A DNA stretch of 64,000 nt from Eggerthellaceae bacterium (GTDB taxonomy: Bacteria; Actinomycetota; Coriobacteriia; Coriobacteriales; Eggerthellaceae), in NCBI GenBank assembly GCA_030524475.1, contig JAUNGO010000003.1, forward strand, positions 1 through 64,000, in the 5' to 3' direction. Both the position numbers and the translations under genes were made by a program. The notes under the pieces are model-generated. The model ran no database searches and had not been told where the DNA came from. It saw only the letters and a program-made list of their open reading frames with translations. Of this stretch, positions 20,900-63,791 are shown one piece after another. Within the stretch, counting starts at the first letter, position 1. Each line of letters begins with the position of its first letter.

Positions 20900-21853
20900 T
20901 TAGTGAACCCCGCATGCTATCACGCAAAACCGCAGGATGAGCCCGCCGGTAAGGCAGAGGGCGTCGGCCACGGGGATGGCGCGGCAGTCGAGGCGGGCGA
21001 GCGAGTAGGCTTCCAGCGTAGCGGGCGCAACGATGCCGAAGCCGAGCACGCCGACGGCGGCGGTGGCCAGCATGTCGGGCGCGGTGAGCAGGGCAAGCGC
21101 CCCGTGCGCGGCGGGGTTGGCGGCGGTTTGCGCGAGGAAAAGCGCGATGGAGGCGGTCTCGGCGGCAAGGCAGGCGAGGTGCGTCTTCTGCAGCGGGCGC
21201 GTCGCGCGCAACAACAGAGTTTGGCCTTGGGTGAACCAATCGACGAGCAGCGTCAGCGAAAGCCCGCACGACAGCGATGAGAACGTGAACACCGCGACGA
21301 TCCACCAACTGCTCCAAAACGGCACGCCGCTGCTGCCGGCGAGGAACACGCCCGTGTACGTCATGACGCATACCGCGCCGACGCAGCAGATGGCTTCGGT
21401 AACGGTGCGCATGCGGAAGCTCAAGGCGGGGCGACCGAACGTGTGCGCGGCGGCGAGCAGCGCGGCTATGAGCGTTTCCGCGGCCAGCGTGTAGGCGCCG
21501 AACGTGAGCACGGTCGCGTGCGGGCGCGTGAACACGAGCAGCGCGCGCTCGGGCGCGCCGAGGTCCCACAGCAAGCAGACCATCGCCAGCACGAGCAGCG
21601 CGAACCCGACGACGTACACGCGCTTCGAGAGCGCTTCGAGGGCGAATACGAGCCGCTCGGCGTGTGCGGCGGGGGCGGGAGCGCAGGTGCGGTTCGCCCG
21701 CAGGCGCCCGGCATGCGCGGCGTGTCTGCGACGAAACCACAGATTCCAAGCCGACACAACCAGCAAGGCGCCCGCCGAGGCGCCTCCTAAGAACAAGTAG
21801 GCTATGACCAAAAACCCGTACAAGCTGCTCCTAAAACGTTTCCAAAAGCGCAA
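20900..21853 (-). CDS. NrfD/PsrC-like membrane subunit (orphan)
   Basis: 317 residues, eight or nine predicted membrane helices, opening YGFLVIAYLFLGGASAGALLV, a phrase typical of NrfD/PsrC subunits that carry quinol-linked electrons for Mo or cytochrome oxidoreductases. No Fe-S or catalytic subunit accompanies it; the gene is followed by the GntR and slipin genes. It could serve a catalytic partner encoded elsewhere or act as a non-redox membrane protein. High GC, like its surroundings. Confidence 0.7.
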   Translation of the reverse strand: MRFWKRFRSSLYGFLVIAYLFLGGASAGALLVVSAWNLWFRRRHAAHAGRLRANRTCAPAPAAHAERLVFALEALSKRVYVVGFALLVLAMVCLLWDLGAPERALLVFTRPHATVLTFGAYTLAAETLIAALLAAAHTFGRPALSFRMRTVTEAICCVGAVCVMTYTGVFLAGSSGVPFWSSWWIVAVFTFSSLSCGLSLTLLVDWFTQGQTLLLRATRPLQKTHLACLAAETASIALFLAQTAANPAAHGALALLTAPDMLATAAVGVLGFGIVAPATLEAYSLARLDCRAIPVADALCLTGGLILRFCVIACGVH

Positions 21854-22201
21854 GGCGGCTGCTCCCGTTCGCGCGAGGCGCGGGCAGGCTCAGCTTCCCG
21901 AACGCAACAATCCCATTATGGCACGTTTCTGACGCACGCATCACTGAAACGCTGAACCATATCGCCATGATAGTTAGCAAAACGAGGAAACAGCGAACCT
22001 GCGTCCGCCTCGCAAAAACCTGCGGCAACCCAACCACTTTGTTCAGAAAATTTGACTCAACTTTTCTGAGCAAAAACAGCCATCTTTTGATGTCTAAGAG
22101 CGTCGATACCCTCTTACTCTGCGTCTCATTGATTTTTTCTGCCATATACGGCAAAAAAAATCAATGAGATATACTATCGCACAACTGAGAAAGGGGCCTA
22201 C
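21854..22201. other. Divergent intergenic region with a long palindrome
   Basis: About 350 bases between the minus-strand nrfD-like gene and the plus-strand AAA gene. It turns abruptly AT-richer from about 21,950 on. The clear structure is a palindrome at 22124-22169: TCTCATTGATTTTTT pairs with AAAAAATCAATGAGA, and inside it GCC (22141-22143) pairs with GGC (22150-22152). TATACT follows at 22170-22175 and AAAGGGG precedes the AAA start. It may be an operator or a terminator. No gene is evident in the rest. Confidence 0.55.
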
Positions 22202-32832: not shown

Positions 32833-33066
32833 CGTGCTTGGCGGCTAGGTTTTCCAGTATCGTATGCACAGGCTGCCCGTCTTGCGCATCTTGTGCGTCT
32901 TGCGTCCTGCTCGGCGCGCATCGAGCCCCTTCGACGGTCTAATCAGTGCTAAACTATCACAGCTTATGCATTGAATCGTTTTTGGCTTGCGCGGCGTCAT
33001 TGGCCGCGTGGCCGCGTGGGGCAGTCGGTGTCATCGGCCGCGCCGCCCCGGAAGGAGCAAAACAGC

Positions 33067-34656
33067 ATGTCGAAGGGCACCTACTCATTCACCACCCCCA
33101 TCTACTACGTGAACGCCGCGCCGCATTTGGGCACGGCCTACACCACCGTCGCCGCCGACACCGTGGCGCGCTACCAGCGCATGAACGGCTACGACGTGGC
33201 GTTCGTTACCGGCATGGACGAGCACGGGCAGAAGGTGGCCGACACCGCCGCCGGCAAGGGCATGACGCCCCAGGCATGGTGCGACTCGATGGAGCCCGCC
33301 TTCCGCGAAACGTGGGACCTGCTTAACATCACCTACACCGACTTCGTGCGCACCACAGAACCCCGCCACGCGCGCTCCGTGCAGAAGTTCTGGTGCGACC
33401 TGTACGACAAGGGCTACCTGTACAAGGGCTCGTACGAGGGCTGGTACTGCGTGCACGAGGAGACCTACTACGCGGAAAGCGACCTGGAGAAAAACGAGGA
33501 AGGCCAGTTCGTGTGCCCCGACTGCAAGCGCCCTGTGCAGCTGATGGCGTCGGGCGAGGAAAACTGGTTCTTCAAGCTGAGCGAGTTCCAGCAGCCGCTG
33601 CTCGACTTCTACGCCGCCAACCCCGACTTCATCCGTCCCGAGACGCGCAAAAACGAGATCGTGTCGTTCGTGGAAAGCGGCCTGAAGGATCTTTCCATCT
33701 CGCGCTCGACGTTCGACTGGGGCGTGCCGCTGCCGTTTGACGAGGGTCATGTGGCGTACGTGTGGGCCGACGCGTTGATCGCGTACCTCACGGGCATCGG
33801 GTACGCCGACGAGGGCGAGCGCGCCGGCGAGTTCGACCGTCGCTGGCCCATGCAGTACCACTTCGTGGGCAAGGACATCACGCGTTTCCACTGCGTCATT
33901 TGGCCGGCCATGCTGATGGCGGCGGGGCTGCCCGTCACGCACACGGTGTTCGGCCACGGCTTTTTGCTCACCAAGGGCGAGAAGATGTCGAAGAGCAAGG
34001 GCAACGGGCTTCGTCCCGCCGACCTGGTGAAGATCTTCGGCGTGGACGCCTACCGCTACTACTTCATGAGCGACGTGCAGTTCGGCCACGACGGCAACAT
34101 CTCGATGGAGCGCATGGTGCAGGTGTACAACGCCGATCTGGCGAACACGTGGGGCAACCTGGTGAGCCGCGTGACGAACATGACGAAGAAGTACTTCGGC
34201 GCCGCGGTGCCCGAGGTGCCCTCAAGCATGGCGGGCGCGGAAAACCCGCTTGAGCAGGCTGCGGCGGGGCTGTACGCGGAATACGATGCGGCCATGGGCG
34301 CGGTCGACTTCACGGGCGCGGCGGCGGCGGTGCAAAGGCTCGCCGAGCGCGCGAACCGCTACATCGAGGAAACCGAGCCGTTTCGCCTGGCGAAAGACCC
34401 CGAGCGCGCCGATGAGCTGGCGTTCGTGATGTACAACCTGCTTGAGACCATCCGCATTGTCGCGCTGTACATGGCGCCGTTCGCGCCGAACACCTCGGCC
34501 GAGGTGTTCCGTCGCCTGTCGCTGGGCGAGGTCACTGATGTGGTGGACATCGAGGGCGCGACTGCGTGGGGCCAGCTGCCCGCCGGCAACGCCGTGGCGG
34601 TGGGCGACCCGCTGTTCCCGCGTTTGGATGTTGACTCCATCGATCTCGAGGCGTAG
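33067..34656 (+). CDS. metG: Methionyl-tRNA synthetase
   Basis: 529 residues from ATG 33067 with GGAAGGAG upstream. The class I signatures are PHLGTAYTT (HIGH-like) and KMSKSKGNG (KMSKS). The connecting domain has the cysteine set FVCPDCKRP. The anticodon-binding helical domain follows, with no C-terminal tRNA-binding (OB) extension. It charges tRNA-Met. It heads a metG-tatD-(flavodoxin)-rsmA group resembling the metS-yabD-ksgA neighbourhood of Firmicutes. Confidence 0.96.
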   Translation: MSKGTYSFTTPIYYVNAAPHLGTAYTTVAADTVARYQRMNGYDVAFVTGMDEHGQKVADTAAGKGMTPQAWCDSMEPAFRETWDLLNITYTDFVRTTEPRHARSVQKFWCDLYDKGYLYKGSYEGWYCVHEETYYAESDLEKNEEGQFVCPDCKRPVQLMASGEENWFFKLSEFQQPLLDFYAANPDFIRPETRKNEIVSFVESGLKDLSISRSTFDWGVPLPFDEGHVAYVWADALIAYLTGIGYADEGERAGEFDRRWPMQYHFVGKDITRFHCVIWPAMLMAAGLPVTHTVFGHGFLLTKGEKMSKSKGNGLRPADLVKIFGVDAYRYYFMSDVQFGHDGNISMERMVQVYNADLANTWGNLVSRVTNMTKKYFGAAVPEVPSSMAGAENPLEQAAAGLYAEYDAAMGAVDFTGAAAAVQRLAERANRYIEETEPFRLAKDPERADELAFVMYNLLETIRIVALYMAPFAPNTSAEVFRRLSLGEVTDVVDIEGATAWGQLPAGNAVAVGDPLFPRLDVDSIDLEA

Positions 34657-34752: not shown

Positions 34753-35787
34753 GTGGACATGGAAGAAGAACCGCAGTTCAAGGATGACCTTTTTCGCGTT
34801 AAGAAGAAAAACGGCGAGTGGAAGGTGGTCGATGCGCCCGACTTCGGGCACATCGCGTTGGCGGACGCGCACACGCACCTGCAGTACGCGACCGACCCGG
34901 TGATGACGCTGGCGCGCGCGGGCCTGCACGGCGTGAGTTATATGTGCACAGTGCTCGACGTGTTCGACGGCGACGAAGAGGTGTTCGAGCGCATCAAGCC
35001 GTGGAGCCATCAGGCTGCGGTGAACATGCAGCTGATGATAGGCCGCTGTTGAGGATCGCCCCGCCCGCGCGTGCCGCGGGTCGACGTGGCGTGCGGCTGC
35101 CATCCGCACAACGCCAAGCACTACGACGCTGCGCTTGAGGCGAAGCTGCGCACGTGGCTGGCGAAGCCCGGCGTAGTGGCGCTCGGTGAGATCGGGTTGG
35201 ACTACCATTACGACTTCTCGCCGGTTGAGGACCAAAAGCGCGCCTTCCGCGCGCAGCTGCGCTTGGCGCGCGAGCTGGGATTGCCCGTGGTGCTTCATGT
35301 GCGCGAAGCGTACGACGACGCGTGGGAGATCATGCGGGAGGAGTGGTTCGACGCGGCGGCGCCGGGCGTCGATGCCGCGGCGACGGTCGCAGGCGACGAG
35401 GCGCAAATCGCCGCCGGCGAAGCAGCCGCCCGCGCCCAGGAGCCGCGCGTGCTCCTGCACTGCTTCACGGCCGATTGGGAAACGCTCGAGCCGTGGATTA
35501 AGGCGGGGTGCTACGTGTCGTTCGGCGGGGCGCTCACGTTCGGCAACGCCGACGCCATTCGCGACGCCGCCGCGCGCGTGCCGCTTGATCAGCTGTTGCT
35601 GGAAACCGACGCGCCCTACATGACGCCGAAGCCCCTGCGCGGGCAGAAGTGCGAGCCGGCGCAGATCGTGTTCACGGCGCAGCGCCTGCTGGAAGTGCGC
35701 GGCATTACCGACTTGCTGGAGCGCTTCAACGTGCTGCACGCCACGTACCAAAACGCCTTGGAGCTGTTTCACCCGTCGAAGGCGTAG
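34753..35787 (+). CDS. tatD: TatD-family hydrolase with in-frame UGA (candidate selenoprotein)
   Basis: One continuous frame of 345 codons interrupted only by TGA at 35050-35052 (codon 100). The N-terminal part has the metal-binding ADAHTHLQ, and the part after the TGA has CGCHPHNAKHY, ALGEIGLDYHYDFS, VVLHVREAYDDAW, LLHCFTADW and LLETDAPYMTPK, a complete TatD metal site split only by the stop. The context is RC-U-GSPRP. A hairpin (35063-35081; stem CCCGCG/CGCGGG, loop CGTGC) begins at a distance expected of a bacterial SECIS. selA, selB and selD are in this window. A nonsense mutation remains possible. Start GTG 34753 or ATG 34759. TatD proteins are metal-dependent nucleases or esterases. Confidence 0.65.
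35063..35081 (+). promoter_or_regulatory. Candidate SECIS hairpin in tatD
   Basis: Stem of CCCGCG (35064-35069) with CGCGGG (35075-35080) plus a G-U pair below it; apical loop CGTGC starting 18 bases after the UGA. The loop position and the G at its second place match the selD hairpin in this window. Confidence 0.5.
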
Positions 35788-35798
35788 AAAGGAAACCT

Positions 35799-36761
35799 AT
35801 GCACCGCGTTATCGTAGTGGGGTCGCCGCGGCCGGACGGGCGCAGCGCTCATCTGGCGGACGAGCTGTTCAACGCCTGTATCGAGGAGTGTCCCGACGAC
35901 GGGGTGTCCATCGTGTCGGTGGCGTCGATCGAGGTGGGGCCGTGCCGCGGCTGCGACGCGTGCCGCGCCGCCACCGAGGCACCCAGCGAGTTGCCCGCCG
36001 ACGACGATACCTTGGCAATCGCGGCCCAGGTGGCGCACAGCGACGCGCTTGCGCACCGCTGCGTCATTCACGACGACATGACGGAGGTGCGCAAGCACTT
36101 GGATGCGGCCGACGAGCTCATCGTGGTGTCGCCGGTGTACTTCGCGAGCGTCCCCGCCCAGTTCAAGGCACTGCTCGATCGTCTGCAGCCCTACTTCTGG
36201 TCGAACTTGCGCGAGGGCGTCAAGCGCCCCTGCGTGCTGCACGTGGTGGGCGAGGGCGGCGACCCGCACGGCTTCGAGCCGCTGGTGGGTACGGTGCGCT
36301 CGGCGCTGGCGTGCGCGGGCTTCGAGGTGGAGCTCGTGCTCGACTGGGTGGGAAAGATCACGCCCGAGGGCGAGATTACCGCCGAGGCCGAGGAATACGT
36401 GCTGGAGCTTGCCGAGGACGGCGCGCTCGAAGAGGTTGGCGAAAGCGTCGACGGCGCATCGGGCGCGCTGAACGCCGACGGCTCCGTAGGGACGGCGCTC
36501 TGTGCCGTCCGCGCAGTTGGGGGCGACGCTGCAACCGATGCCGATGCCGACGCTGATGCGCCCGAGCCCGCTTCTGCGAAAGCGAGACCGAGGCTCTCCC
36601 TTTCCGACGCCAAGCCGCAGAAGGGTGGCAAGGGCAACAAAGGCAACGGGCGCGGTGCCCAGGGCGCCGGCGGCAAGAAGCAGGGCGGCGGCTCGCGCGG
36701 CGAACAGGCGCGTGGCAACGGCAAGCCCCGCAGCGGCAAAGGCGGCAAGCGCCGTGGGTAG
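35799..36761 (+). CDS. Flavodoxin/NADPH-FMN-reductase-like protein with basic tail
   Basis: 320 residues from ATG 35799 with AAAGGAAA upstream. Residues 1-195 form an FMN-reductase-like flavodoxin fold (VIVVGSPRPDGRSAHLADEL, the CRGCDACR cysteines, SPVYFASVPAQFKALLDRLQ), as in multimeric flavodoxin/iron-sulfur flavoproteins. The last 120 residues are low complexity: acidic, then Gly/Lys/Arg-rich (KGGKGNKGNGRG), suggesting nucleic-acid or ribosome contact. A GGACGGC/GCCGTCC palindrome (36490-36510) lies in this tail. The end overlaps rsmA by eight bases. Electron partner unknown. Confidence 0.75.
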   Translation: MHRVIVVGSPRPDGRSAHLADELFNACIEECPDDGVSIVSVASIEVGPCRGCDACRAATEAPSELPADDDTLAIAAQVAHSDALAHRCVIHDDMTEVRKHLDAADELIVVSPVYFASVPAQFKALLDRLQPYFWSNLREGVKRPCVLHVVGEGGDPHGFEPLVGTVRSALACAGFEVELVLDWVGKITPEGEITAEAEEYVLELAEDGALEEVGESVDGASGALNADGSVGTALCAVRAVGGDAATDADADADAPEPASAKARPRLSLSDAKPQKGGKGNKGNGRGAQGAGGKKQGGGSRGEQARGNGKPRSGKGGKRRG

Positions 36762-37786: not shown

Positions 37787-39706
37787 CTACACCAGCACGC
37801 GTAGGTCGCCCTCGCGACGGGTGAGGCCGGTCGCGTCGAAATACTCGAGCAGCGGCATGGCGTACTTGCGCGAAAGCCCCATCGCCTCTTTGAGATCGGC
37901 GGCGGTTGCGGGACCCGCCTCGCGAATGCGCGTTGCCACGGCTTCGCGATAGCGCTCCATCACGGCAACGTCGTAGTAACGGTTCGCGTCGAGGCGCACC
38001 GCCCGCCCGTCGCGGACGAGCGTCGCTAGCGCGCGGCGAACAAGCGCCTCGTCGACGGCGAACGTCTGCGCGATGTCCGCCACCTCAAGCGGCGCGTCCT
38101 GCGCCTCGGCGAGCGCACAGGCCAGCTTCTCTGCCGTCTCCTGCTCAAGCTTGCGCGCGCCGGCGCCTGCCTTCGGGTGGCTCACCTCGCCCTCGGTGCG
38201 CGCAACAGCGCCGCGTTCTGTGGCTACGTCGAGCAGCGCGTCGAAGGTCGCGGCGTCGGCGGCGGGCAGCGCCGCTTGGCGCAGCGCCTCCTTGGACATG
38301 CCTGTGGCCTGCGGGTTCGCGGTGTGGAAGCTCAGCAGGGCGCGCTCGATCTTGGAGACAAGCTTCTGCACGAGAGCGCCGCGCGCGTAGCGCTTGCGTG
38401 CCGCGCCCAAAACCACGAGGCTCGCCTCGGCCTCCATTGTGTCGAGTGCGCGCTCCACCACGGCGTGCCCCAGCCCGCAGGCGCGCGCCACGTCGTCGAG
38501 TGTCTCGGGCAGCGACGCCAGCTCCAGGTGCGCGCCGACGGCCGCTTCCACGTTGCCCTCGTCGAGGGCGGTGAGCATCGTGCGCTCCTCGGGCTTGAGT
38601 GTGGTGCGGCGGCGCGGGGCGGGCGAGAGCACCGTGCCGCCGCCGATGACGTGCACAGGCGACCACGAGCGCACGATGAACTGGTCGCGGTAGGCAAGCG
38701 GCAGCGGCTCATCAAGCCTGACTTGGGCAAACGAATGCGCCCCCGAATCGAGTGATTCCGCGCCGTCCATGAACAGGACGCGTCCTTGAACCTCGCGCGT
38801 GCCGTGCGCCACGTGGATGCGCGCGCCGCTTTTCAGCGGGCGACCGAACGCGAAGGGGTCGAGGTAGGTGAACTCGGCGTCGAACCGGTCGGTCAGCTCG
38901 GCGGCGGCAGGCGCGCTCAAAAAGTCGCCGGGGCGCACCTCGTCGGTGGAAAGCCCCGCAAGGCTCACCGCCACGCGGTTGCCCGCCGCGGCGCGCTCGC
39001 ACGAGGCGCCGTGCATCTGCACCGATCTCACGCGCGTGCGCGCGCCCGAAGGCAGCACGACCAGCTCGTCGCCTTCCGCAAGCTGCCCGCTCCAAAGCGT
39101 TCCCGTGACCACGGTGCCGAAGCCTTTCACGGTGAACACGCGGTCGATGGGCATGCGTGCCGCGCCGTCGTCTTTGGTGCGGCTTGCGTGCGCGCAGGCC
39201 GTATCGATGGCGGCGCGCAGCTCGTCGAGTCCCTCGCCCGTGCGGCTCGACACGCCCACGATGGGCGCGCCGGCAAACGGCCCGTCCTCAAGGCGCGCGG
39301 CAACGTCGTCGGCGATGAATGCGCGCCACTCCTCGTCGACGAGGTCGATCTTCGTGAGCGCCACCACGGCCGACCTCACGCCGAGCAGCTCGAGCACCGC
39401 CATGTGCTCGACGGTTTGCGGCATGATGCCGTCGTCGGCGGCGATTACCAGAAGCGCCACGTCGACGCCGGTGGCGCCCGCCACCATGTGCCGCACGAAC
39501 TTCTCGTGCCCCGGCACGTCGACCACGCCCATCGTGCGTCCGCTCGGTAGCGTGAGCTGGGCGAACCCCAGCTCGATGGTGATGCCGCGGCGCTTTTCCT
39601 CGGCGAGGCGGTCGGGGTCGGTGCCGGTGAGCGCCCGCACGAGCGAGGACTTCCCGTGATCGATGTGCCCGGCCGTGCCCAGGATGAGGTTGGCTTGCTC
39701 GCTCAT
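37787..39706 (-). CDS. selB: Selenocysteine-specific elongation factor SelB
   Basis: 639 residues. GTPase motifs at the start: [48 protein letters not shown]. Two EF-Tu-like beta-barrel domains follow ([20 protein letters not shown]). The C-terminal third is a run of winged helices ending [20 protein letters not shown], the SECIS-binding arm that distinguishes SelB from EF-Tu. It delivers Sec-tRNA to UGA codons bearing a SECIS. Three bases after selA, same operon. Confidence 0.96.
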
Positions 39707-39709
39707 GCT

Positions 39710-41185
39710 CTACGCCTCCAGCTGCTCGAAATACGCCGCGCACGCCCGCGCGATCTCGTCGATCTCGTCGTCGTTTAGTATCGTGCGCGCGTCGAACAGC
39801 AGCGCCTCTTGGTGGATGCGCGCGATGATGGGCACGTCGTTTTTCCTGATCAAGTACTCTTCGCAGTCCTGCGCGCCGCCTCGCTTAAACTCAAGCTGCA
39901 CGGCGAAGGTATCGATGTCGCGCATGGGAAGCGCACCGCCCCCCGCGCGGCTGATCTCGGGCACCGCCTCGACGGCGCCGCATTCCGCGGGTACGGCGTC
40001 GGCAATGCGCGCGGCCAGCGCCTCGGCGCGCTCGCGCACGGCGGCGGCTGGCGCGTTCAGCATGCGCAGCGTGGGCACGTGCTCGCGGGCAACTTCGGGG
40101 TTGAGGTAGAGTCTCAGCGTTGCCTCCAGCGCGGCGAGCGTCATCTTGTCGAGGCGCAGCGCGCGGGCGAGCGGGTTTTTCTTCAAGCGCCCGATGAGCT
40201 CCGCCGACCCGATGACGATGCCCGCCTGAGGCCCGCCGAGCAGCTTGTCGCCCGAAAACGACACGAGGTCGCAGCCGGCGGCCAGCGCCTCGCCGGCGGT
40301 CGGCTCGTTCATGGAGCCCAGGTTGTCAAGCGCCAGCAGCGCGCCCGACCCCAAGTCCTCGTACACTAAAATTCTCGGCGCGTCCACGCCGCGCGCGCGT
40401 CGGTCGGCCTCGGCCGCGTCGGCGATGCGGCGCATCTCGCGCGCCGACACGCTTTCGGTGAACCCGATCAGGCGGTAGTTCGACGTGTGTACCTTCAGCA
40501 GCATGGCGGTGTCGTCGGTGACGGCACGCTCGTAGTCGAAGTCGTGCGTTTTGTTGGTGGTGCCCACCTCGATCATGCGCGCGTTCGAGAGTTCCATAAT
40601 GTCGGGGATGCGGAACGACCCGCCGATCTCCACCAGCTCGCCGCGCGACACCACGGCCTCGTGCCCGCAGGCGAACTCGGAGAGCACCATCATCACGGCG
40701 GCGGCGTTGTTGTTCACGGCGATGGCCGCCTCGGCGCCCGTGAGTTCGCAGATGAGCCGCTCGCAGTGGGCGTGGCGGCTGCCGCGGCACATACCCTGCA
40801 CGTCGTATTCGAGCGTGGAGTAGCCGCGTGCCACGTCGAGCACGGCGGCGACGGCCTCGTCGGCCAGCACGCTGCGGCCGAGGTTGGTGTGTACGATCAC
40901 GCCGCTCGCGTTGACGACGCGCCGCAGCGAGGGGGCGAAAAACGCCCGCGCGATTGCGCACGCATGCGTGGCAACCGCGTCGAGCGACGCGGCCTCGGCG
41001 GCGTCGTCGTCGGTAAGGCTGCTGGAAAGGATATGCTCGCGTGCGCGGCTGACGGCCTCGCGCGCGGCGTCGACCACCACGCTGCGGGGCAGCTCGGCGG
41101 CCAACGCGGCCGCGGCGGGCGTGTTCAGCACTTCCTCGACGGAGGGCAGCGAGCGCAAAATCGAGTTCAGGTTCTTCTTGGTCAC
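39710..41185 (-). CDS. selA: L-seryl-tRNA(Sec) selenium transferase
   Basis: 491 residues from GTG 41185 with AAAGG ten bases upstream; longer upstream frames are spurious. It starts KKNLNSILRSLPSVEEVLN, contains NASGVIVHTNLGRSVL, GRAEAAIAVNNNAAAV-like residues (GAEAAIAVNNNAAAVMM) and the PLP lysine in LVSFSGDKLLGGPQAG. It converts Ser-tRNA(Sec) to Sec-tRNA(Sec) using selenophosphate. It is transcribed divergently from the glycosyltransferase; a TATAAT lies upstream on its strand (41275-41270). The tRNA(Sec) gene is not seen nearby. Confidence 0.96.
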   Translation of the reverse strand: MTKKNLNSILRSLPSVEEVLNTPAAAALAAELPRSVVVDAAREAVSRAREHILSSSLTDDDAAEAASLDAVATHACAIARAFFAPSLRRVVNASGVIVHTNLGRSVLADEAVAAVLDVARGYSTLEYDVQGMCRGSRHAHCERLICELTGAEAAIAVNNNAAAVMMVLSEFACGHEAVVSRGELVEIGGSFRIPDIMELSNARMIEVGTTNKTHDFDYERAVTDDTAMLLKVHTSNYRLIGFTESVSAREMRRIADAAEADRRARGVDAPRILVYEDLGSGALLALDNLGSMNEPTAGEALAAGCDLVSFSGDKLLGGPQAGIVIGSAELIGRLKKNPLARALRLDKMTLAALEATLRLYLNPEVAREHVPTLRMLNAPAAAVRERAEALAARIADAVPAECGAVEAVPEISRAGGGALPMRDIDTFAVQLEFKRGGAQDCEEYLIRKNDVPIIARIHQEALLFDARTILNDDEIDEIARACAAYFEQLEA

Positions 41186-41425
41186 GAGCGTGTGCCTTTC
41201 GTGCGCGAAAGCGGAATGACGCGCAAGCGTGCGTTGCCTTCGCGCGGTCGTTGCCTTTAAGCTGCGGTCATTATAGACCAGCTGCGTGGAGACGCGGAAA
41301 CCAACGTGTAGAATGCGAAGGGTGTTTTTTGGCGAGCGAAATCGACGGACGGAAACCGGCGTCGGCGGGGCGGTGCCGACGGACGAGAGTCGACGTCGGC
41401 GACATCGACGGTTAGGAGTGCGGTC

Positions 41426-42646
41426 GTGAGGATCTTGAACATCAGCGCGCAGAAGCCCGACAGCACGGGAAGCGGCGTGTTTCTGGCGCAGATGGTGCGT
41501 TGCCAGGTTGAGGCGGGGCATAAGGCGGCGGTGGTGTGCGGTGTCGACGCGGCCGACGCGCCCGATGAGTCGCTTGTGCCCGAGGCTGCGGTGTACCCCG
41601 TGCGCTTCAACACCGCCGAGCTGCCGTTTGACGTGTGCGGCATGTCGGACGTGATGCCGTACGCCGCCACGCGCTACCGTGACCTCACGCCTACCATGCT
41701 CGCGCAGTTCAAGGCGGCGTTCACGCGCGTGATTTCCGAGGCCGACGCGGCATTTCGGCCCGACGTGGTGATCTGTCACCACCTCTACCTCGTCACGGCG
41801 GTGGCGCGCGAGGCGTTGCCGCACCGCCCGCTGGCGGGCATCAGCCACTCGACCGACCTGCGTCAGATGGCGCAGCACGACCTCGACCGCGCGTTCATCC
41901 TGCGCGGCGTGCGCGCGCTTGACGCGGCGCTCGCGCTGCACGAGGAGCAGGCGGCCCAAATCGAGCGCACATACGGCGTGCCGCGCGAACGTATCCACGT
42001 GATCGGCACGGGCTACGACGCGCGCACCTTCAACCTCGGGGAGGCGGGGAAGGGAAAGCCTAACGCAGGTGTTCCGCGCGTGCTCTACGTGGGCAAGATC
42101 GGCGAGAAGAAAGGCGTGCTCTCGCTGCTTGAAGCCTACGACGAGCTTGCGCGGCGCGGCGTGGCGTGCGGGCTCGATTTGGTGGGCGGCCACAGCGACG
42201 AGGCCGAGTACGCGCGCATCCGCGAGCGCGCCGCCGCGTGCACGCATGCACCGACGTTTTGGGGCAAGGTGCCGCCCGAAGGCGCCGCCGAGCGCTACCG
42301 CGCCTCCGACGTGTTCGTGCTGCCGTCGTTTTTCGAGGGGTTGCCGCTGGTGGTGGTCGAGGCGCTTGCCTGCGGCTGCAAGGTGGTGGTAACCGACCTT
42401 CCTGGGCTGCGCCCGTGGCTTTCCGCGTTTGTGCCCGACGCGCCGGTAACCTACGTTAAGCTGCCGCGCTTGCGAAACGTCGACACGCCCGTGGATGAGG
42501 ATCTCCCCGCGTTCGAGCAGCGCTTGGCCGACGCCGTCGAGTGCGCGCTGGCCCAGCCTGCGCGCCCCTGCGACACGTCGAGCCTCACCTGGGAGCGTCT
42601 GACCGAGCGCGCTTTGGCGGTACTTGGGCTGCCGGGCGAATGTTAG
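41426..42646 (+). CDS. Glycosyltransferase family 4 protein
   Basis: 406 residues from GTG 41426 with AGGAG upstream. Two Rossmann-like halves: N-terminal MRILNISAQKPDSTGSGVFLAQMV, and C-terminal VLYVGKIGEKKGVLSLLEAY then VFVLPSFFEGLPLVVVEALACGCKVV, where the EGLPLVVVEA segment is the GT4 nucleotide-sugar motif. It probably adds a sugar to a cell-surface glycan or glycolipid, but no glycan genes adjoin it. Divergent from selA; the 240-base gap between holds no other gene. Confidence 0.85.
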   Translation: MRILNISAQKPDSTGSGVFLAQMVRCQVEAGHKAAVVCGVDAADAPDESLVPEAAVYPVRFNTAELPFDVCGMSDVMPYAATRYRDLTPTMLAQFKAAFTRVISEADAAFRPDVVICHHLYLVTAVAREALPHRPLAGISHSTDLRQMAQHDLDRAFILRGVRALDAALALHEEQAAQIERTYGVPRERIHVIGTGYDARTFNLGEAGKGKPNAGVPRVLYVGKIGEKKGVLSLLEAYDELARRGVACGLDLVGGHSDEAEYARIRERAAACTHAPTFWGKVPPEGAAERYRASDVFVLPSFFEGLPLVVVEALACGCKVVVTDLPGLRPWLSAFVPDAPVTYVKLPRLRNVDTPVDEDLPAFEQRLADAVECALAQPARPCDTSSLTWERLTERALAVLGLPGEC

Positions 42647-42706
42647 CCTCCTAATGGACGGATTGCTGGTATTCTGGTTCGTATCGAAAGAGAAAGGATG
42701 GTCGGC

Positions 42707-44284
42707 ATGCCCATTCAATCCGAGCAGCAGCGTAGCGAGTTGCATAAAACAATCTGGTCTATCGCGGACGACCTGCGTGGCAGCGTGGATGGCTGGGATT
42801 TCAAGCAGTATATTCTGGGAACACTCTTTTATCGATTCATCAGTGAGAACTTGTGTGCTTATCTCGCCGAGCAGGAAGGCGACCCGTCATTTGACTACGG
42901 CAAGCTGCCTGACGAACAAGCTGAGTACGGCCGTGAGGAAACGGTTAAGGAAAAAGGTTTTTTCATATTGCCGAGCGAGCTTTTTTCTCGCGTGTTGGAA
43001 ACCGTTGATAAGAATGGCATGGCTCTTGCCGAGAACGGCGACGATCTCAACGAAATCTTGGTGCGGGTGTTCGCCAACATCGAGGGCAGTGCTGTGGGCA
43101 CCGAGTCCGAGGACGACGTGAGGGGGCTTTTTGCCGATTTCGACCCCAACAGCCCCAAACTCGGCAACTCCGTTATCGAGCGGAACAAGAAGCTGGTCAC
43201 GCTTATCACCAAAATCGGAGCTCTTGATTTTGGCGGCACGTTCCAGGAAAACGGCATTGACGCCTTTGGCGACGCCTATGAGTTCCTCATGACCATGTAC
43301 GCCTCTGGTACTGGCAAAAGTGGAGGCGAGTTTTTCACCCCGCAGGAGGTGGGCGAGCTTTTGGCTCGCATCGTCATCGGTCATCGCACGAGCGTGAACA
43401 AGGTGTATGACCCTTGCTGCGGATCGGGTGGCCTGTTGCTTAAGTTCGCCAAGATTTTGGGAGCGTCCAACGTGCGCAGCGGTTTCTTCGGCCAAGAAAT
43501 TAACCTTACCACGTATAACCTCGCGCGCATCAATATGTTTCTGCACGACATCAACTTCGACAAGTTCAGCATTGTGTGCGAAGACACGTTGAAAGCCCCT
43601 GCCCATTGGGACGACGAGCCGTTCGACGCTATCGTGTCTAATCCGCCCTATTCAATTAAGTGGGAGGGTAAGAGCAACCCGCTCAACATCAACGACCCGC
43701 GCTTTTCTCCTGCGGGTGTGCTTGCGCCGCCCAGTAGGGCCGACCTCGCCTTTACCATGCACATGCTATCGTGGCTGTCCACCGAGGGTACGGCGGCCAT
43801 CGTCGAGTTTCCGGGTGTGCTTTATCGGGGTGGTGCCGAGGGAAAGATTCGCGACTACCTGGTGCGCAACAACTTCGTCGATGTGGTTATCCAGCTGCCG
43901 CCCGACCTGTTCTTTAACACCAATATCGCCACCTGTGTGCTGGTGCTCAAGCGGTCGAAATCAACGAGCGACATCCTGTTTGTGGACGCTAGTGGCGAAT
44001 TTGTGCGTGCCGACGCGAAGAACAAGCTCTCTCAGGAAAACATTGACCGCATTGTTGGAACCGTGGTGGAGCGTACCGAGGAGAAAAACTTCTCAAGGTT
44101 GGTCTCAAACGACGACGTGCTGACGAATGACGTCAATCTTTCTGTGAGCAGTTACGTCGAGAAGCCCGACGAGCGCGAGGAGGTCGACATCAAGGCCCTG
44201 AATGTGGAGATCGAGCGCATTGTGGCGCGCGAGCAGGAGCTGCGCGAGCGAATCGACGCCATTGTGGCGGATTTGGAGGGGTAG
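42707..44284 (+). CDS. hsdM: Type I restriction-modification DNA methyltransferase subunit
   Basis: 525 residues; ATG 42707 sits eight bases after AAAGGA, better than the ATG at 42698. N-terminal HsdM helical domain (LHKTIWSIADDLRGSVDGWDF), then SAM motif region (YDPCCGSGGLLLKFAK) and the N6-adenine catalytic motif in AIVSNPPYSIKW (NPPY). It methylates adenine in the target set by HsdS. First gene of a five-gene locus running to 50417, with lower GC than the surrounding genome. Confidence 0.95.
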   Translation: MPIQSEQQRSELHKTIWSIADDLRGSVDGWDFKQYILGTLFYRFISENLCAYLAEQEGDPSFDYGKLPDEQAEYGREETVKEKGFFILPSELFSRVLETVDKNGMALAENGDDLNEILVRVFANIEGSAVGTESEDDVRGLFADFDPNSPKLGNSVIERNKKLVTLITKIGALDFGGTFQENGIDAFGDAYEFLMTMYASGTGKSGGEFFTPQEVGELLARIVIGHRTSVNKVYDPCCGSGGLLLKFAKILGASNVRSGFFGQEINLTTYNLARINMFLHDINFDKFSIVCEDTLKAPAHWDDEPFDAIVSNPPYSIKWEGKSNPLNINDPRFSPAGVLAPPSRADLAFTMHMLSWLSTEGTAAIVEFPGVLYRGGAEGKIRDYLVRNNFVDVVIQLPPDLFFNTNIATCVLVLKRSKSTSDILFVDASGEFVRADAKNKLSQENIDRIVGTVVERTEEKNFSRLVSNDDVLTNDVNLSVSSYVEKPDEREEVDIKALNVEIERIVAREQELRERIDAIVADLEG

Positions 44285-44286
44285 AT

Positions 44287-45423
44287 ATGTCGAAGGATAT
44301 TGCTAAGAAGTCTGCTACGGGAATCGAAGATGCGCAGCTCAATCGACTGTGTGAAGACGCCTTTTCTATTATCGAAGCTGGGCGCAAGAATGCGTATCGA
44401 GCTGTTAACGTCGCAATGGTTTATAGCTATTTTGAGTTGGGACGTCGTATTGTCGAGGAAGAGCAGAACGGGTCTTCTCGGGCGGGATACGGCGCAAAGC
44501 TTCTGACGCGCCTTGCTGCCGCGCTTACCGAGCGATATGGTCGTGGCTTTTCTGACACCAACCTCAGACAGATGCGCAATTTCTACCTGGTTTACTCGGA
44601 GGACGAGATTCAGCAGACGCTATCTGCTGAATTCGCGGGGCTTCCCAAAACCCAAGAAGGGCGCGTTTTCCCGCTCTCGTGGTCGCACTATCTCAAGCTC
44701 ATGCGCATCAAGGACATTGATGAGCGCCATTTCTACGAAGCAGAGACGGCTAAGAACAACTGGAGCCTCGCGGAGCTCAATCGGCAATTCGACAGTGCCC
44801 TTTACGAGCGGTTAACGCTGAGTCGCGACAAAGACGAAGTTAAGAAGCTTGCGGAGAAGGGGCAGATAGTTGAAAAGCCGTCCGATTTAGTGAAAGACCC
44901 GTATGTTCTCGAATTCGTGGGGCTTGAGGAGAAGCCGTCGTATTCGGAGAGCGACCTTGAGGGTGCCATCATCGACAATTTGGAGAAGTTCTTGCTGGAG
45001 ATGGGACGCGGGTTCACGTTCGTGGGCAGGCAGGTTCGATTCACGTTCGACGAGGAGCATTACTTCGTGGACCTAGTCCTGTTCAACCGTCTGCTCAGTT
45101 GCTTTGTACTGGTGGATTTGAAGATTGGAAAACTGCGGCACCAAGACCTCGGCCAGATGCAGATGTACGTGAACTACTTCGACCGATACGAGCGCCTCGA
45201 GAGCGAGAACCCCACCATAGGCATCGTGCTTTGCAAGGATAAAAACGATTCTATGGTGGAGCTTACGCTGCCTAAAGACAACGAGCGGATTTTTGCCAGC
45301 AGATACCAAACGGTGCTTCCGAGTAAAGACGAGCTTCGGCAACTTATGGACGAAAGCGCAGAGCGTTTCGAGGCGACTAAGCTCTCTGGTGATGTTGCAA
45401 CGGCTATGGAGGGTAGTCAGTAA
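44287..45423 (+). CDS. YhcG-type PD-(D/E)XK nuclease (DUF1016)
   Basis: 378 residues, two bases after hsdM. The N-terminal helical DUF1016-N part (AYRAVNVAMVYSYFELGRRIVEEEQNG, RYGRGFSDTNLRQMRNFY) is followed by the nuclease part: FLLEMGRGFTFVGRQVRF, then FVDLVLFNRLLSCFVLVDLK (the D...DLK catalytic pattern). Such proteins are often embedded in type I RM loci; they are predicted DNA nucleases, possibly Holliday-junction-like. Position suggests an accessory defence nuclease. Confidence 0.82.
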   Translation: MSKDIAKKSATGIEDAQLNRLCEDAFSIIEAGRKNAYRAVNVAMVYSYFELGRRIVEEEQNGSSRAGYGAKLLTRLAAALTERYGRGFSDTNLRQMRNFYLVYSEDEIQQTLSAEFAGLPKTQEGRVFPLSWSHYLKLMRIKDIDERHFYEAETAKNNWSLAELNRQFDSALYERLTLSRDKDEVKKLAEKGQIVEKPSDLVKDPYVLEFVGLEEKPSYSESDLEGAIIDNLEKFLLEMGRGFTFVGRQVRFTFDEEHYFVDLVLFNRLLSCFVLVDLKIGKLRHQDLGQMQMYVNYFDRYERLESENPTIGIVLCKDKNDSMVELTLPKDNERIFASRYQTVLPSKDELRQLMDESAERFEATKLSGDVATAMEGSQ

Positions 45424-46268
45424 TGGCGCGCGGAGACAGAGAGCTGCACTGCTTAGAGCGAATTATTGATGACGTTTTTCCTGATGGCAGAGATTTCGGC
45501 GCTGGAGTAGTTAATACGTCTTTGCTTCATTCGTCGGTTTATGGATTTGCGCAGGATGATTGGGATACGCTTTGCGAGGACCTTGCATCCGCTAAGCCCA
45601 ATGCCGATCCAAGCAGCTTTCCTGACTTCATAAGCGGCGATACTGTCCTTGAACATTTCGAGATAACCGCAACCATCGAAGGTCGTAAGGGGTCGCAGTT
45701 TAAGCGCAAGCACGAACCCTTTATGGGATCAATGCGGAAAGGATTAGGAAACCTTTCTGTTGAGGACAATCCTCGAGCGATTAGTCGCGCTTTTCCATAC
45801 CCAAACCAACAGCACGTGTCGTTGCTCGACTCTCTTGAGCGCAATCTCTCTAAGCATGCCGAGTCTTTGCGTGCGTTCAGAGTCAAACATGCGATCAGCA
45901 AAGCTATCTTCGTCATTGAACATCGGGAATATGGTCTAGCAATGATAGAAGATGTTTTTGGAGAAATTGGCTCGGGTCGGATCTTTGGGGATATGCGCGA
46001 GCAACAGAAGTTCAGCAGCTACAGAATGAGCAGGGATGCGGACGCTCTCTCAATCTTGGCTGACTACGCTGCCGAGATCGACGTGGTGGTATTTGTTGGC
46101 GTTGAGAACATCGAGTTTATTAAGGTCGCTGAGATTCCTGATATGTTGAAACTCATGCCGTGGCCATTCGTGATAGCTGCTGGCCCGACGGTCGAACTGC
46201 ATACATTTTTGCCAGTTACGAGAGTATGTGCACCTGAAAAGGAAGGGGTCGATTATGAGCAAAGTTAA
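45423..46268 (+). CDS. Unknown protein embedded in the type I RM locus
   Basis: 281 residues; ATG overlapping the previous stop by one base (TAATG). I recognise no family. Visible features: LEHFEITATIEGRKGSQFKRKHEP, a stretch of acidic and basic residues that could belong to a nuclease fold; a middle segment with AISKAIFVIEHREYGLAMIEDV; and VVVFVGVENIEFIKVAEIPDML at the C-terminus. No membrane segment or signal. Its end overlaps hsdS by 14 bases, so it is translationally coupled on both sides and is probably a dedicated part of this defence system. Confidence 0.6.
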   Translation: MARGDRELHCLERIIDDVFPDGRDFGAGVVNTSLLHSSVYGFAQDDWDTLCEDLASAKPNADPSSFPDFISGDTVLEHFEITATIEGRKGSQFKRKHEPFMGSMRKGLGNLSVEDNPRAISRAFPYPNQQHVSLLDSLERNLSKHAESLRAFRVKHAISKAIFVIEHREYGLAMIEDVFGEIGSGRIFGDMREQQKFSSYRMSRDADALSILADYAAEIDVVVFVGVENIEFIKVAEIPDMLKLMPWPFVIAAGPTVELHTFLPVTRVCAPEKEGVDYEQS

Positions 46269-47331
46269 TGACATGGTTAAATGCTTATGCCCCGATGGCG
46301 TAGAATATCGTGACCTGCATGAAATTGCTATCATCAGAGCTGGCAGAGATTATAAGCATTTAGGCAAAGGAACCATTCCCGTTTATGGCAGCGGTGGTGT
46401 GATGACGTATGTGGACAATTTCACATATGATAAACCAACCGTACTACTTCCACGCAAGGGCTCTATTGGCAATGTGTTTTATGTCGATGAACCTTTTTGG
46501 AACGTGGACACGATTTTTTATACAGAGATCAATGAAAGTATCGTTATGCCGAGATTTTTCTACCACGTCATGCTCTCTCGGCACATAGAACGATTGAGCA
46601 CTTCGAACGCCGCGCGACCGGCATTGACAAAGAAAGTACTCGATAAGGTGCGTGTTCCTGTGCCGCCTATGGAGATTCAGCAAGAGATTGTATGCGTACT
46701 AGACTCCTTCGCGGAGCTTGAGGCGGAGCTTGAGGCGCGACGGGCTCAGTATGCCCACTACCGGAACGCCCTGATTGACGGAATTGCTTCCGAAAGCATG
46801 CCCTTGTCTAAACTGGCGCAAATTGGAACTGGCAGCCGCGATACAAAAGATGCAGTTTCCGACGGTGAGTTTGTTTTTTATGCTCGTGGCGTCGATTCCC
46901 TTCGACTAGATGAATATGATTTCGACGAGACCGCAGTCATCACGGCGGGTGACGGTGCGGGTGTTGGAAGGGTGTTTCATTTTGTAGAAGGAAAGTATGC
47001 ACTTCATCAGCGGGCATACAGGATGGCTCCCGATGAGGAAAAGCTCTATTCCAGGTTCTTCTACCATGTGTTAAATGCTCGATTCTATGATTACATAATG
47101 GCGAATTGCGTATCTAGTTCGGTTTCCTCGATTCGCAGAAAAATGCTCGACAACTTTCCAGTGCCTATTCCTTCCCTTGAAGAACAGCACCGCATTGCTG
47201 GTATTCTCGACAAGTTCGATGCTTTGGTTAACGACATCTCTCAAGGTTTGCCTGCCGAAATTGAAGCTCGTCGCAAGCAGTATGCTTATTACCGCGACAA
47301 GTTGCTTTCGTTTAAGGAGAAGGTTGCATGA
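46255..47331 (+). CDS. hsdS: Type I restriction-modification specificity subunit
   Basis: 358 residues from ATG 46255 with AAGGAAGGGG upstream. Two target-recognition domains, each followed by the conserved helical spacer: LDSFAELEAELEARRAQYAHYRNALI (about residue 165) and LDKFDALVNDISQGLPAEIEARRKQYAYYRDKLL (about 325). The repeated helix sets the gap between the two half-sites of the bipartite DNA target. The target itself cannot be read from the sequence. Overlaps hsdR by four bases. Confidence 0.93.
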   Translation: MSKVNDMVKCLCPDGVEYRDLHEIAIIRAGRDYKHLGKGTIPVYGSGGVMTYVDNFTYDKPTVLLPRKGSIGNVFYVDEPFWNVDTIFYTEINESIVMPRFFYHVMLSRHIERLSTSNAARPALTKKVLDKVRVPVPPMEIQQEIVCVLDSFAELEAELEARRAQYAHYRNALIDGIASESMPLSKLAQIGTGSRDTKDAVSDGEFVFYARGVDSLRLDEYDFDETAVITAGDGAGVGRVFHFVEGKYALHQRAYRMAPDEEKLYSRFFYHVLNARFYDYIMANCVSSSVSSIRRKMLDNFPVPIPSLEEQHRIAGILDKFDALVNDISQGLPAEIEARRKQYAYYRDKLLSFKEKVA

Positions 47332-50300
47332 GCGAACATGGTAGGCGCGTCGAGTACGGCGTTGTAGGCATTCCCGAGGAAATGTTGGATGAGTCGCTGG
47401 TAGATGATTTGCCTGCATCGGTCGACTTCGAGGTCATGGCGTTCGGTGGTCAGGCCACCGTATGCGCTGCCGCTCCCAAGCAGGGCAAACGCTCGACGGC
47501 TTACCAAAGCGAGGCCGAGTTGGAAGCGGCCTTCATTGCGCAGCTTCAGCGCCAGGCGTACGAATATGTTGTGTTTTCCTCCGAAGGGGAACTTGCTGCC
47601 AACCTGCGCCGACAGCTCGAAGCGCTGAACGGCCTCACGTTCACCGACAAGGAGTGGGAACGCTTCTTTAAGGGCTGCATAACGTCCGAAAACGAGGGCA
47701 TTGCGGAAAAGACGCGCCGCATCCAGCGCGACCACGTGCAGGTGCTCCATCGCGATGACGGCTCCGTGAAGAACGTGCAGCTTATCGACAAGCGCAACGT
47801 GCATAACAATCGTTTGCAGGTGATGAACCAATATGCGCAAAGCGGCACCTACGACAATCGCTACGACGTCACCATCCTGGTGAACGGCCTGCCGCTGGTG
47901 CACGTGGAGCTTAAACGCCGAGGCGTGGCGATAAAAGAGGCGTTCAACCAGATAGAGCGCTACCAGCGTGACAGTTTTTGGAGCAGCTGCGGTCTGTACG
48001 AGTACGTGCAAATCTTCGTGATCTCCAACGGCACGCACACGAAATACTACTCCAACACCACGCGCTGGAGCCACATTGAGGAGTCGAAGGGCAGGCGACG
48101 CAGCGGGAAAAAGACTTCCAACAGCTTCGAGTTCACCAGCTGGTGGGCAGACGCCGATAACGTTCCCATCATGGATTTGGTGCCGTTCACGTCATCGTTT
48201 TTCGCCAAGCACGCCATTTTGAACATTCTTACACGTTATTGCGTCTTTGACGTGGATGACCATCTGCTGGTTATGCGCCCGTATCAAATTGTGGCGACCG
48301 AGCGCATCCTGAACCGCATTCTTGTGTCCGAGAACGACAAACGCATGCTGGGCACGCTGAGGGCGGGCGGCTACATATGGCACACCACGGGCAGCGGCAA
48401 GACGCTCACGAGCTTCAAGACGGCCCAGCTGGCAAGTGGCATGGCGGGCGTTGACAAGGTTATGTTCGTCGTGGATCGCAAAGACCTCGACTACCAGACC
48501 ATGCGCGAATACGACCGCTTCGAGAAGGGCGCGGTGGACGGAAGCGAGTCGACGGCGGTGTTGGCGAGGCAGCTGGCCGATCCCGACTGCCGTATTCTTG
48601 TGACCACTATCCAAAAGCTCTCCGTGTTCATCAAGAAGAACAAGAAGCATGATGTTTACTCGAGCCACGTGGTTGTCATCTTTGACGAATGCCACCGCAG
48701 TCAGTTCGGCGAGATGCACGCGGCCATCATCAAGCATTTCAAGGCGTATCACCTGTTCGGCTTTACGGGTACGCCCATTTTCGCGGACAACGCCAGTGCC
48801 TCGGGCAATCCCAAGTTGCGCACCACGGAGCAGGCGTTCGGGGAAAAGCTGCACACCTATACCATCGTCGATGCCATCCGCGACGGCAACGTGCTGCCCT
48901 TCCGCATCGACTACATCCAAACCATCAAGGCGCGCGAAGACTTCCCTGACCAAAAGGTCTACGACATCTATCGCGAGGGCGCGTACAAGGCGCAGGAACG
49001 TGTGGAATCAATCGTGAGCTATGTGCTCGACCACTATGCGCAGAAAACCAAGCGCAGCTCCAACTACCTGCTGAAAGACCAGCGTGTAATGGGCTTCAAC
49101 TCCATCTTCTGCTGTGCGTCCATCGATATGGCAAAGGTTTATTACTCGGCGTTTAGACGTATGCAGGCAGAGCGTGGCGGTGAGCAGCTTAAAGTGGCGC
49201 TTATCTACAGCTTCGGCGTGAACGAAAGCGACGACGGCTGCGGTCTTCCCGACGAAAGCTTCGACGTGGAAAGCTTGGATACGCCCGACCGCGATTTCCT
49301 GCAGGCCGCCATCGACGACTACAATGCAATGTTCTCCACGAGTTTCGATACGAGCTCGGATGGCTTTCAGAACTACTACAAGGACTTGTCCGACCGCATG
49401 AAGAACCGTCAGCTGGATATGGTCGTCGTGGTCAATATGTTCCTTACCGGCTTCGACGCCACCACGCTTAACACGCTTTGGGTTGACAAGGACCTCAAGG
49501 ACCACGGCCTCATCCAGGCGTTTTCCCGCACGAATCGCATTCTGAACTCCGTGAAGACCTACGGCAACATCGTGTGCTTTCGCAATTTGGAGGATCGGGT
49601 CAACCATGCCATCAGCCTTTTTGGGGATAAGGACGCTGGCGGCATCGTGCTGCTTAAGCCTTATGCCGAATACTTGGGGGAATACCGGGAGCGCTTGGCG
49701 CAGCTGTACGATCGTTTCCCGCTTGGACAGGTTATATTGGGGGAGGAGACCGAAAAGGCGTTTATTCGCCTGTTCGGCACGATACTCAGGTTGCGTAACG
49801 TGTTGTCGGCTTTTGACGACTTCGAGGGGGACGATCCGCTGTCGCCGCGCGACGAACAAGATTATCGCAGCGTGTATACCGATCTCTACCAAAAATGGCG
49901 TAAGGACAAAGAAGAAGCTGCCATCATCAACGACGACCTTGTTTTCGAGGTTGAGCTATTGAAGCAGGTTGATGTAAACATCGATTACATCCTTATGTTA
50001 GTGCAGAAATACCATGACACCAACTGTGCCGACAAGCTTATTATCGCCGACGTTGAGCGCGCTATCGGCGCCAGCTATGAGTTGCGCAATAAGCGAGACC
50101 TCATCGAGCGGTTCATCGACGGACTTAACGCGAGCGAGGACGTTGTCGCTGACTGGAGGAAATACATCGAGGAGCAACGCGAGAAGGAGTTGTCTGCCAT
50201 CATCGCTGATGAATCGTTGGATGACGTCGCTACGCGCGAGTTTGTGGCGCGTTCGTTTGTCGAGGGGGAAGTGACAGAAAACGGCACCGAGATTACGTTG

Positions 50301-52443: not shown

Positions 52444-52449
52444 GCGCAA

Positions 52450-52499: not shown

Positions 52500-52550
52500 A
52501 TCTTCGCCACCGCCCGTTCGCCTCGAACAAACAAAGAGAGAGGAAGCATC

Positions 52551-62427: not shown

Positions 62428-63501
62428 TTAGCTGAACTCGATCTTGCACTCCGCGTCTTTTACGACGCGCCCGATTCTCGCGGGCGCGCGTCCCGCTTCT
62501 CGCTCGAAGGCGCGCTCGAACGTCTCGGCGCGCTCGGGCGGCACGGCCACGATCAGGCCACCCGAGGTTTGCGGGTCGCATATGACGGCCATGCGGTTGT
62601 CGAACTCCTCGTCGTCGAGCGCTCCTTGCCGCACGAAAGGCGCGGCGAAGTCCATGATCGAGAACGTGCGGTTCGGGCGGCAGTACGCGCACGAGAGGTC
62701 CCACGCGCCCGCGAACAGCGGCAACGCCTCCCAGTCGAGCACGGCGCCCACGCTGCTTGCGGCCAACATCTCGTGCAGGTGCCCCGCCAGCCCGAAGCCC
62801 GTCACGTCGGTCGCGGCGTGCACGCCCGACTCCAGCATAGCTGCGGCTCCCGCGCGGTTGAGCTCGCGCATCGATGCGACTGCCGGCGCGAATGCGTCGG
62901 CGTCAACCTCGCCGATCTTGTATGCGGCGCTCAAAAGCCCCACGCCGAGCGGCTTGGTCAAAAAAAGCACGTCGCCCGGCACGGCGCCCTCGTTGCGCAC
63001 GATGCGCTTCGGGTGCACGGTGCCCATGACGCACAGGCCGTACTTCGGCTCAGGGTCGTCCACCGAGTGTCCGCCCACAATGAGCGCGCCCGCCTCGCGC
63101 ACGGCGTCGGCCCCGCCGCGCAGCACCTCGCGCGCCACGTCGTTGCCGAGCGCGCAGTCGAGCGCCAGCACGTTTAAGGCGCACACGGGCACGGCGCCCA
63201 TCGCGAACACGTCGGACAGCGCGTTCGCCGCGGCGATGCGCCCGAAGTCGTAGGGGTCGTCCACCAGCGGCGTGAGGAAGTCGACGGTGAGCACGGCGGC
63301 CACCTCGTCGCTCATGCGCAGCACGGCGGCGTCGTCGCTCGTCTCGAAACCGAGCAGCAGGTCGTCCGCGAAGGGGGAGGCGGTGTTCGCGCCCGCAAGC
63401 ACGGGCGCCAGTATGTCGGCGAGGTCGCCCGGACCCCACTTCGCCGCTCAACCGCCCTTCGACGTCAGCTCGGTCAAGCGCACGCGCTCCTTCTCGCTCA
63501 C
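62428..63501 (-). CDS. selD: Selenophosphate synthetase, itself a selenoprotein (UGA at codon 18)
   Basis: 357 residues from GTG 63501 (AAAGGGGG upstream) reading through TGA at 63450-63448 as Sec: the local sequence TSKGG-U-AAKWGPGDLADIL matches SelD active sites, where Sec or Cys precedes a catalytic Lys. A start after the UGA would remove the catalytic residues. Downstream are DDAAVLRMSDEVAAVLTVDF, GGADAVREAGALIVGGHSVDD and DVTGFGLAGHLHEML, all standard. It makes selenophosphate from selenide and ATP. A SECIS-like hairpin follows the UGA (63439-63419). Confidence 0.95.
63419..63439 (-). promoter_or_regulatory. SECIS-like hairpin in selD
   Basis: On the minus strand GTGGGGTC pairs with GACCTCGC (including G-U pairs) around a five-base loop CGGGC that starts 17 bases after the UGA. 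This matches the distance needed for SelB-dependent recoding in bacteria. Confidence 0.65.
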
Positions 63502-63791
63502 GGCTGCGCCCCCTTTCTCGCGCTTTCCTCGCGCTCGGTTCCCCGTTTTTCGTTGCTGCGCTCAGTATAGCACCGCCGCTCACCAGCGTTTTCGGCACGC
63601 ACGCCGCGCGGGGCGTCCCATTTGCGACGCGAAGAAAACCTGAAGAAAGATTCCAGTCTGAGAGATGTTGCCAACCTGTTATGTTGCGGTTATGTGTCCG
63701 AGTTGTGGAGATGCGAAGGATTGAGTTTGTGTTTCCGCGCCTTGGGCGCGCGAGAGATCAAGCAACGAGAGATGAAAGGAGTGGGTAGCTC

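Follow-up and report, generated by a model that had tools for sequence, protein, structure and literature searches.

An in-frame UGA shared by tatD genes of Eggerthellaceae suggests a new selenoprotein family of TatD-type hydrolases

Does the UGA inside the tatD gene of an Eggerthellaceae bacterium end a truncated protein, or is it read as selenocysteine (Sec), and if so, what might Sec do in a TatD-type hydrolase? The gene lies in a stretch of 64,000 nucleotides (hereafter, the window), which belongs to contig C21 of a 2.3 Mb genome that is 85% complete. An earlier note, made from the letters of the window, had described the TatD frame as open on both sides of the TGA, with intact metal-binding motifs on both flanks. 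This description was borne out: the frame contains exactly one in-frame TGA, is open on either side of it, and reads in-frame over 344 codons from GTG 34753 or ATG 34759, the latter being the better fit to the GAGGAAA ribosome-binding site, to the stop TAG 35787 (Table 1). The TatD metal-site motif HTH precedes the UGA, and the motifs GCHPH, GEIGLD, LHVREA, LHCF and ETDAPY follow it; in the aligned orthologues, residues D36, H38, H40, H115, H117, E144, H180, H234, E282 and D284 (model-sequence numbering) are invariant. In a profile search, the read-through protein scores 198.6 bits against Pfam PF01026 (TatD_DNase, cut-off 27), while its match to NCBIfam TIGR00010, in two stretches, reaches 176.8 bits and stays below the threshold of 206. 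Its homology to E. coli YcfH and T. maritima TM0667 is clear. We take the product to be a metal-dependent TIM-barrel hydrolase of the TatD type, full-length and with a predicted nuclease function, and we would expect current annotation pipelines to split or truncate the UGA-containing tatD genes of Eggerthellaceae.

Table 1. Features of the window that bear on the reading of the tatD UGA
Feature	Coordinates	Strand	Basis
metG, conserved upstream neighbour of tatD	32971..34656	+	neighbour showing tatD orthology
tatD, read through UGA, 344 codons	34753..35787	+	ORF reading, Pfam PF01026, TatD fold
Family-specific Sec loop, helix alpha-2 to strand beta-3, ~residues 95-109	35035..35079	+	AlphaFold2 model
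In-frame UGA, proposed Sec codon, residue 100	35050..35052	+	UGA in same column in 27 genomes, Cys in 10
Putative SECIS hairpin, stem CCCGCG / CGCGGG, loop CGUGC 35070-35074	35064..35080	+	paired in 27/27, covariation, bSECIS rules
Flavodoxin-fold FMN-reductase-like protein, directly after tatD	35799..36761	+	context
selB, Sec-specific elongation factor	37787..39706	-	TIGR00475, 380.8 bits
selA, Sec synthase, start approximate	39710..41190	-	TIGR00474, 536.5 bits, residues 530-999 of longer frame
selD, itself a selenoprotein gene, UGA 63448-63450, start approximate	62428..63519	-	tblastn 6e-67; TIGR00476, 354 bits, 1 TGA

The case on the nature of the UGA rests on related genomes. Namely, we searched 138 Eggerthellaceae genomes with the read-through TatD protein, and extracted and aligned 70 loci. 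The upstream neighbour metG is conserved, which shows these tatD genes to be orthologues; in the window itself, the placement between metG and rsmA given by the earlier note is right, except that the flavodoxin-fold gene sits between tatD and rsmA, after which come selB and selA on the minus strand. The UGA occurs at exactly the same tatD column in 27 species genomes from at least 12 genera, finished isolate genomes among them, and a hairpin-pattern search of named genomes identifies Gordonibacter pamelaeae, Eggerthella sinensis, Paraeggerthella hongkongensis, Ellagibacter isourolithinifaciens, Adlercreutzia faecimuris and Enteroscipio rubneri as carriers. Coding conservation extends over both flanks of the UGA across the 27 genomes, as is demanded of bacterial selenoproteins. 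In a tree built without the Sec loop, UGA, Cys and other forms fall into interleaved clades, with eight changes in all; in particular, the Cys form L002 is the sister of the UGA form L003, inside the window's own genus. Among the matches listed from 398 genomes of the class, no tatD outside Eggerthellaceae has an internal stop, and for this reason Sec-TatD would, on present evidence, be a feature of this family.

The same alignment answers the earlier proposal to look for Cys or UGA at codon 100: UGA is found in 27 orthologues and Cys at the matching motif in 10 (L002, L026, L036, L038, L042, L044, L050, L052, L055 and L064). Cys was scored in 13 rows of the column, of which L032, L037 and L069 were left out owing to their long, unrelated loops; in L036 and L038 the register of the Cys is uncertain by one residue. 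The exchange goes together with the Sec machinery. Namely, nine of the 10 Cys-form genomes have neither SelB over the cut-off nor tRNA-Sec (only G029 has both), and tRNA-Sec is present in all 27 UGA genomes as against 47 of the 111 others (Fisher p = 4.5e-9, a value that is optimistic owing to kinship). SelB exceeds the cut-off in 25 of the 27 UGA genomes, the remaining two being 82% and 56% complete. The earlier note had counted close relatives with neither Cys nor UGA as an argument against Sec. For most close relatives the outcome is favourable; among the exceptions is genus g37 (G087, G088 and G089; loci L029-L031), which has retained the Sec machinery and carries neither residue in its tatD loop. 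Because these relatives, Sec system and all, lack the residue altogether, Sec is dispensable in TatD rather than essential to it.

The window's genome, as the earlier note had stated, has SelA, SelB and SelD: the three genes lie in the window and tRNA-Sec lies elsewhere in the genome, so that selA, selB, selC and selD are all accounted for. The minus-strand frame 39710-42745 was considered as a SelD-SelA fusion and rejected, only its last part being selA and the rest being the antisense of a plus-strand frame with a glycosyltransferase-like reading; a selD candidate at 20900-21937 was likewise discarded once the gene was found at the position given in Table 1. That said, selD was not found in three UGA-tatD genomes of genus g23 (G057, G058 and G060; loci L134, L137 and L138), and this counts against the Sec reading. 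In all three, UGA-tatD, UGA-fdh genes and tRNA-Sec are present; what is more, selB and selA adjoin tatD in G057, and selB is also over the cut-off in G058. In genus g23, tRNA-Sec and selB directly follow tatD, in the slot that the flavoprotein gene occupies elsewhere. G057 has two strong tRNA-Sec genes (C1:727224-727316 and C1:1021199-1021291), as have G035, G114 and G127.

If the UGA is a Sec codon, a SECIS element should follow it. Indeed, a hairpin of 6 bp is present, with arms at 35064-35069 and 35075-35080, its stem starting 11 nt and its loop 17 nt after the UGA. The earlier note had placed a hairpin with a five-base loop 18 bases after the UGA; the hairpin is real, and it is the loop, not the stem, that begins at the 18th base. 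In the nearly equal selD hairpin, put at 17 bases, it is the loop that starts at the 17th base after the selD UGA. Taken alone, the window hairpin is nothing unusual in DNA this rich in GC: its energy is -12.4 kcal/mol (z = -1.38), and 22 of 200 shuffled sequences do equally well. The case for a SECIS element therefore rests on comparison across genomes. The 48 bases from the UGA onward align without gaps across the UGA forms, and the stem is formed in 27 of 27 UGA sequences, with 156 of 156 cells paired; when the partners are slid by 1-3 columns as a control, only 21-65% of the cells are paired. Compensatory changes from C-G to U-A occur at two of the six pairs, in 7 and 3 sequences (10 cells). 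In L009, L020 and L027, a change from CGC to TGC (Arg to Cys) in one arm is accompanied by a silent change from CCG to CCA in the other. P105 (CCG), V107 (GTG) and R109 (CGG) are each encoded by a single codon in all 26 genes compared, even though CGG makes up only 16% of the Arg codons in these tatD genes; the mean share of the dominant codon at other conserved degenerate tatD columns is 0.68. In the two Cys forms that were checked, the hairpin is either damaged (L002, one pair lost, -7.5 kcal/mol) or destroyed (L026).

With its 6 bp, its CGUGC loop, its spacing of 17 nt and its -12.4 kcal/mol, the tatD hairpin falls within all published limits for bacterial SECIS elements, namely a loop of 3-9 nt with G in the first two positions, a stem of 4-16 bp, a spacing of 16-37 nt and an MFE of at most -7.5 (PMC13188914). 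It also has the same build as the Eggerthellaceae hairpins of selD (loop CGGGC, 16 nt after the UGA) and fdh (loop GGUCU, 18 nt), all three in the same genomes having 5-nt loops that start 16-18 nt after the UGA. Scanning for the tatD SECIS pattern returned 6 of 396 phylum genomes, every one with UGA-tatD, and nothing in the reversed control; a scan of all species genomes added six matches in unrelated GC-rich bacteria, which we take as chance. At the Rfam gathering thresholds, the window had no matches. A covariance model of the tatD SECIS was tried as a general SECIS finder and dropped as too specific, since in the window it found only tatD and missed selD.

From the conserved UGA, the Sec/Cys exchange, the co-occurrence with the Sec machinery and the covarying SECIS, we infer, with near certainty, that the tatD UGA is read as Sec in the window bacterium and in many other Eggerthellaceae. 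SelB and Sec-tRNA(Sec) would decode codon 100 under the guidance of the hairpin CCCGCG-CGUGC-CGCGGG that starts 11 nt downstream, and in the full-length TatD thus made, Sec would sit ahead of strand beta-3, in a loop absent from many other TatDs. Could the UGA be anything else? One MAG, by itself, would be compatible with a sequencing error or a decaying pseudogene with a true stop, but the same column in 27 genomes, several of them finished isolates, the intact frame past the UGA and the covarying hairpin refute this by comparison and leave it a negligible chance. If UGA were a sense codon for Trp or Cys, through a suppressor tRNA or a changed code, the frame would be open just as well; yet the code is ordinary elsewhere in the window, Trp does not occur at the column, tRNA-Sec is present in every UGA genome and the SECIS is conserved, so that we regard such a reading as extremely improbable. 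It is also very improbable that a short N-terminal protein is followed by re-initiation at GTG 35071, yielding a TatD of 238 residues. A mechanical ORF does exist at 35071-35787, but its product would lack the HxH metal-site motif ahead of the UGA, a motif that all aligned orthologues share without change, and the Cys forms are one continuous protein.

A subtler alternative accepts the recoding and denies the importance of the residue. Namely, UGA and SECIS could act as a selenium switch, giving a full-length nuclease with selenium and a 99-residue fragment without it, with the Sec side chain mattering little. UGA recoding is generally incomplete (30-40% in E. coli; PMC4513850), the topology of the model would place Sec in a non-catalytic loop, and relatives do without Sec. 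However, it is Cys, and not any residue, that replaces Sec where the machinery is missing (nine of the 10 Cys forms), which suggests selection on side-chain chemistry, and we consider the switch improbable.

If the UGA is indeed read as Sec, where in the protein would the residue lie? An AlphaFold2 model from a 64-sequence alignment has a mean pLDDT of 93.5, and its best structural matches are TatD structures (probability 1.00, TM-score up to 0.87 by target). In model numbering, which is protein numbering minus two, Sec falls between helix 73-93 and strand 107-113, in the loop that joins them; the far end of this strand bears HPH. The loop is missing or different in 30 of the 70 orthologues. 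In a TIM barrel, loops that lead from helix to strand are found on the side away from the catalytic face. In E. coli TatD, DNA and metals are bound at the top loop region (PMC4176340). For these reasons Sec probably does not belong to the nuclease centre, and its predicted place, by topology, is on the opposite face of the barrel, at a distance from the metals that counts against a redox role. The earlier note had seen a typical Cys-Sec redox motif in RC-U-G. A Cys (Cys99) does precede Sec, in 19 of the 27 UGA forms; conserved to only this extent, the pair is not a general feature of the family, let alone its defining motif.

As for function, mutation of tatD in E. coli lowers the resistance to hydrogen peroxide, and TatD clears damaged nucleotides (PMC4176340), so that a role for Sec that is linked to oxidants is plausible. 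Our confidence in any specific redox or sensor role is low. As a tentative guess, the selenol may be no residue that catalyses DNA cleavage but a reversible redox site, one that could, for example, sense or take up oxidants, so that a DNA-repair nuclease stays active or gets switched. A wider idea, which we consider rather unlikely, is that such a nuclease has gained a second site, a redox-active selenol on the barrel face away from the nuclease centre, through which DNA processing in gut Eggerthellaceae would be tied to the supply of selenium or to the oxidative state. The flavoprotein encoded downstream, which has a CxxCxxC stretch, is at most a speculative electron donor: its gene comes directly after tatD in most Eggerthellaceae, irrespective of what stands at the Sec column and of whether the genome is a UGA genome or not, and we have rejected it as a special partner of Sec, to which it is not tied.

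How does this protein compare with known systems? With described TatD DNases (E. coli TatD 4p5u, YcfH 1yix, T. maritima TM0667 1j6o; PF01026) it shares the TIM-barrel fold and the metal-site motifs, and it differs from them in the extra loop before beta-3, in an insert at about residues 205-229, and in the proposed Sec, which described members lack. UshA is a metal-dependent phosphoesterase. UshA-like selenoproteins (NF041198, NF049981) are, likewise, a hydrolase family with Sec, but they have another fold, belong to another family and carry the motif CxU or CxxU. With known bacterial selenoproteins in general (FdhA, SelD and the 119 families of PMC13188914), UGA-tatD has in common the in-frame UGA and the Sec/Cys exchange, and its hairpin resembles those of the FdhA and SelD type in being short, with a 5-nt loop, G in the first two positions and 16-18 nt from UGA to loop. 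In contrast to them, the TatD Sec would be neither in a thioredoxin-like fold nor at a known catalytic centre.

The earlier note knew of no well-established Sec-containing TatD, and neither does the literature covered here. TatD is absent from the 2022 list of prokaryotic selenoproteins (PMC9312934), the 2026 list of 119 families holds no TatD or other DNase (PMC13188914), none of the NCBIfam models matching the window TatD describes a selenoprotein, and a search of open-access papers found no earlier report. With 27 UGA and 10 Cys forms, SECIS covariation and absence from published lists, the suggestion of a candidate new family gains weight: by the field's usual computational criteria, its status as a new selenoprotein family is well supported. 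If true, this would be, as far as we found, the first DNase among selenoproteins, present in the well-studied human gut genera Eggerthella and Gordonibacter, and a case of Sec taken into a loop absent from many relatives, the protein being a hydrolase and no oxidoreductase. What is more, the several natural contrasts between Sec, Cys and absence would open the old question of why Sec is retained to direct testing.

Other genes of the window's genome deserve a brief mention. Beside selD, at the end of the window, begins a formate dehydrogenase gene that has one in-frame TGA (window 63939-64000 onward, G000:C21:63939-64685), and a second one with an in-frame TGA is found at G000:C19:38183-40228. 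Near selA and selB there is a type I restriction-modification locus (42698-50417) with hsdM, a YhcG/DUF1016 nuclease-like gene, hsdS and hsdR, and two genes for double-cubane-cluster anaerobic reductases lie close together at 52350-53825 and 56553-57707.
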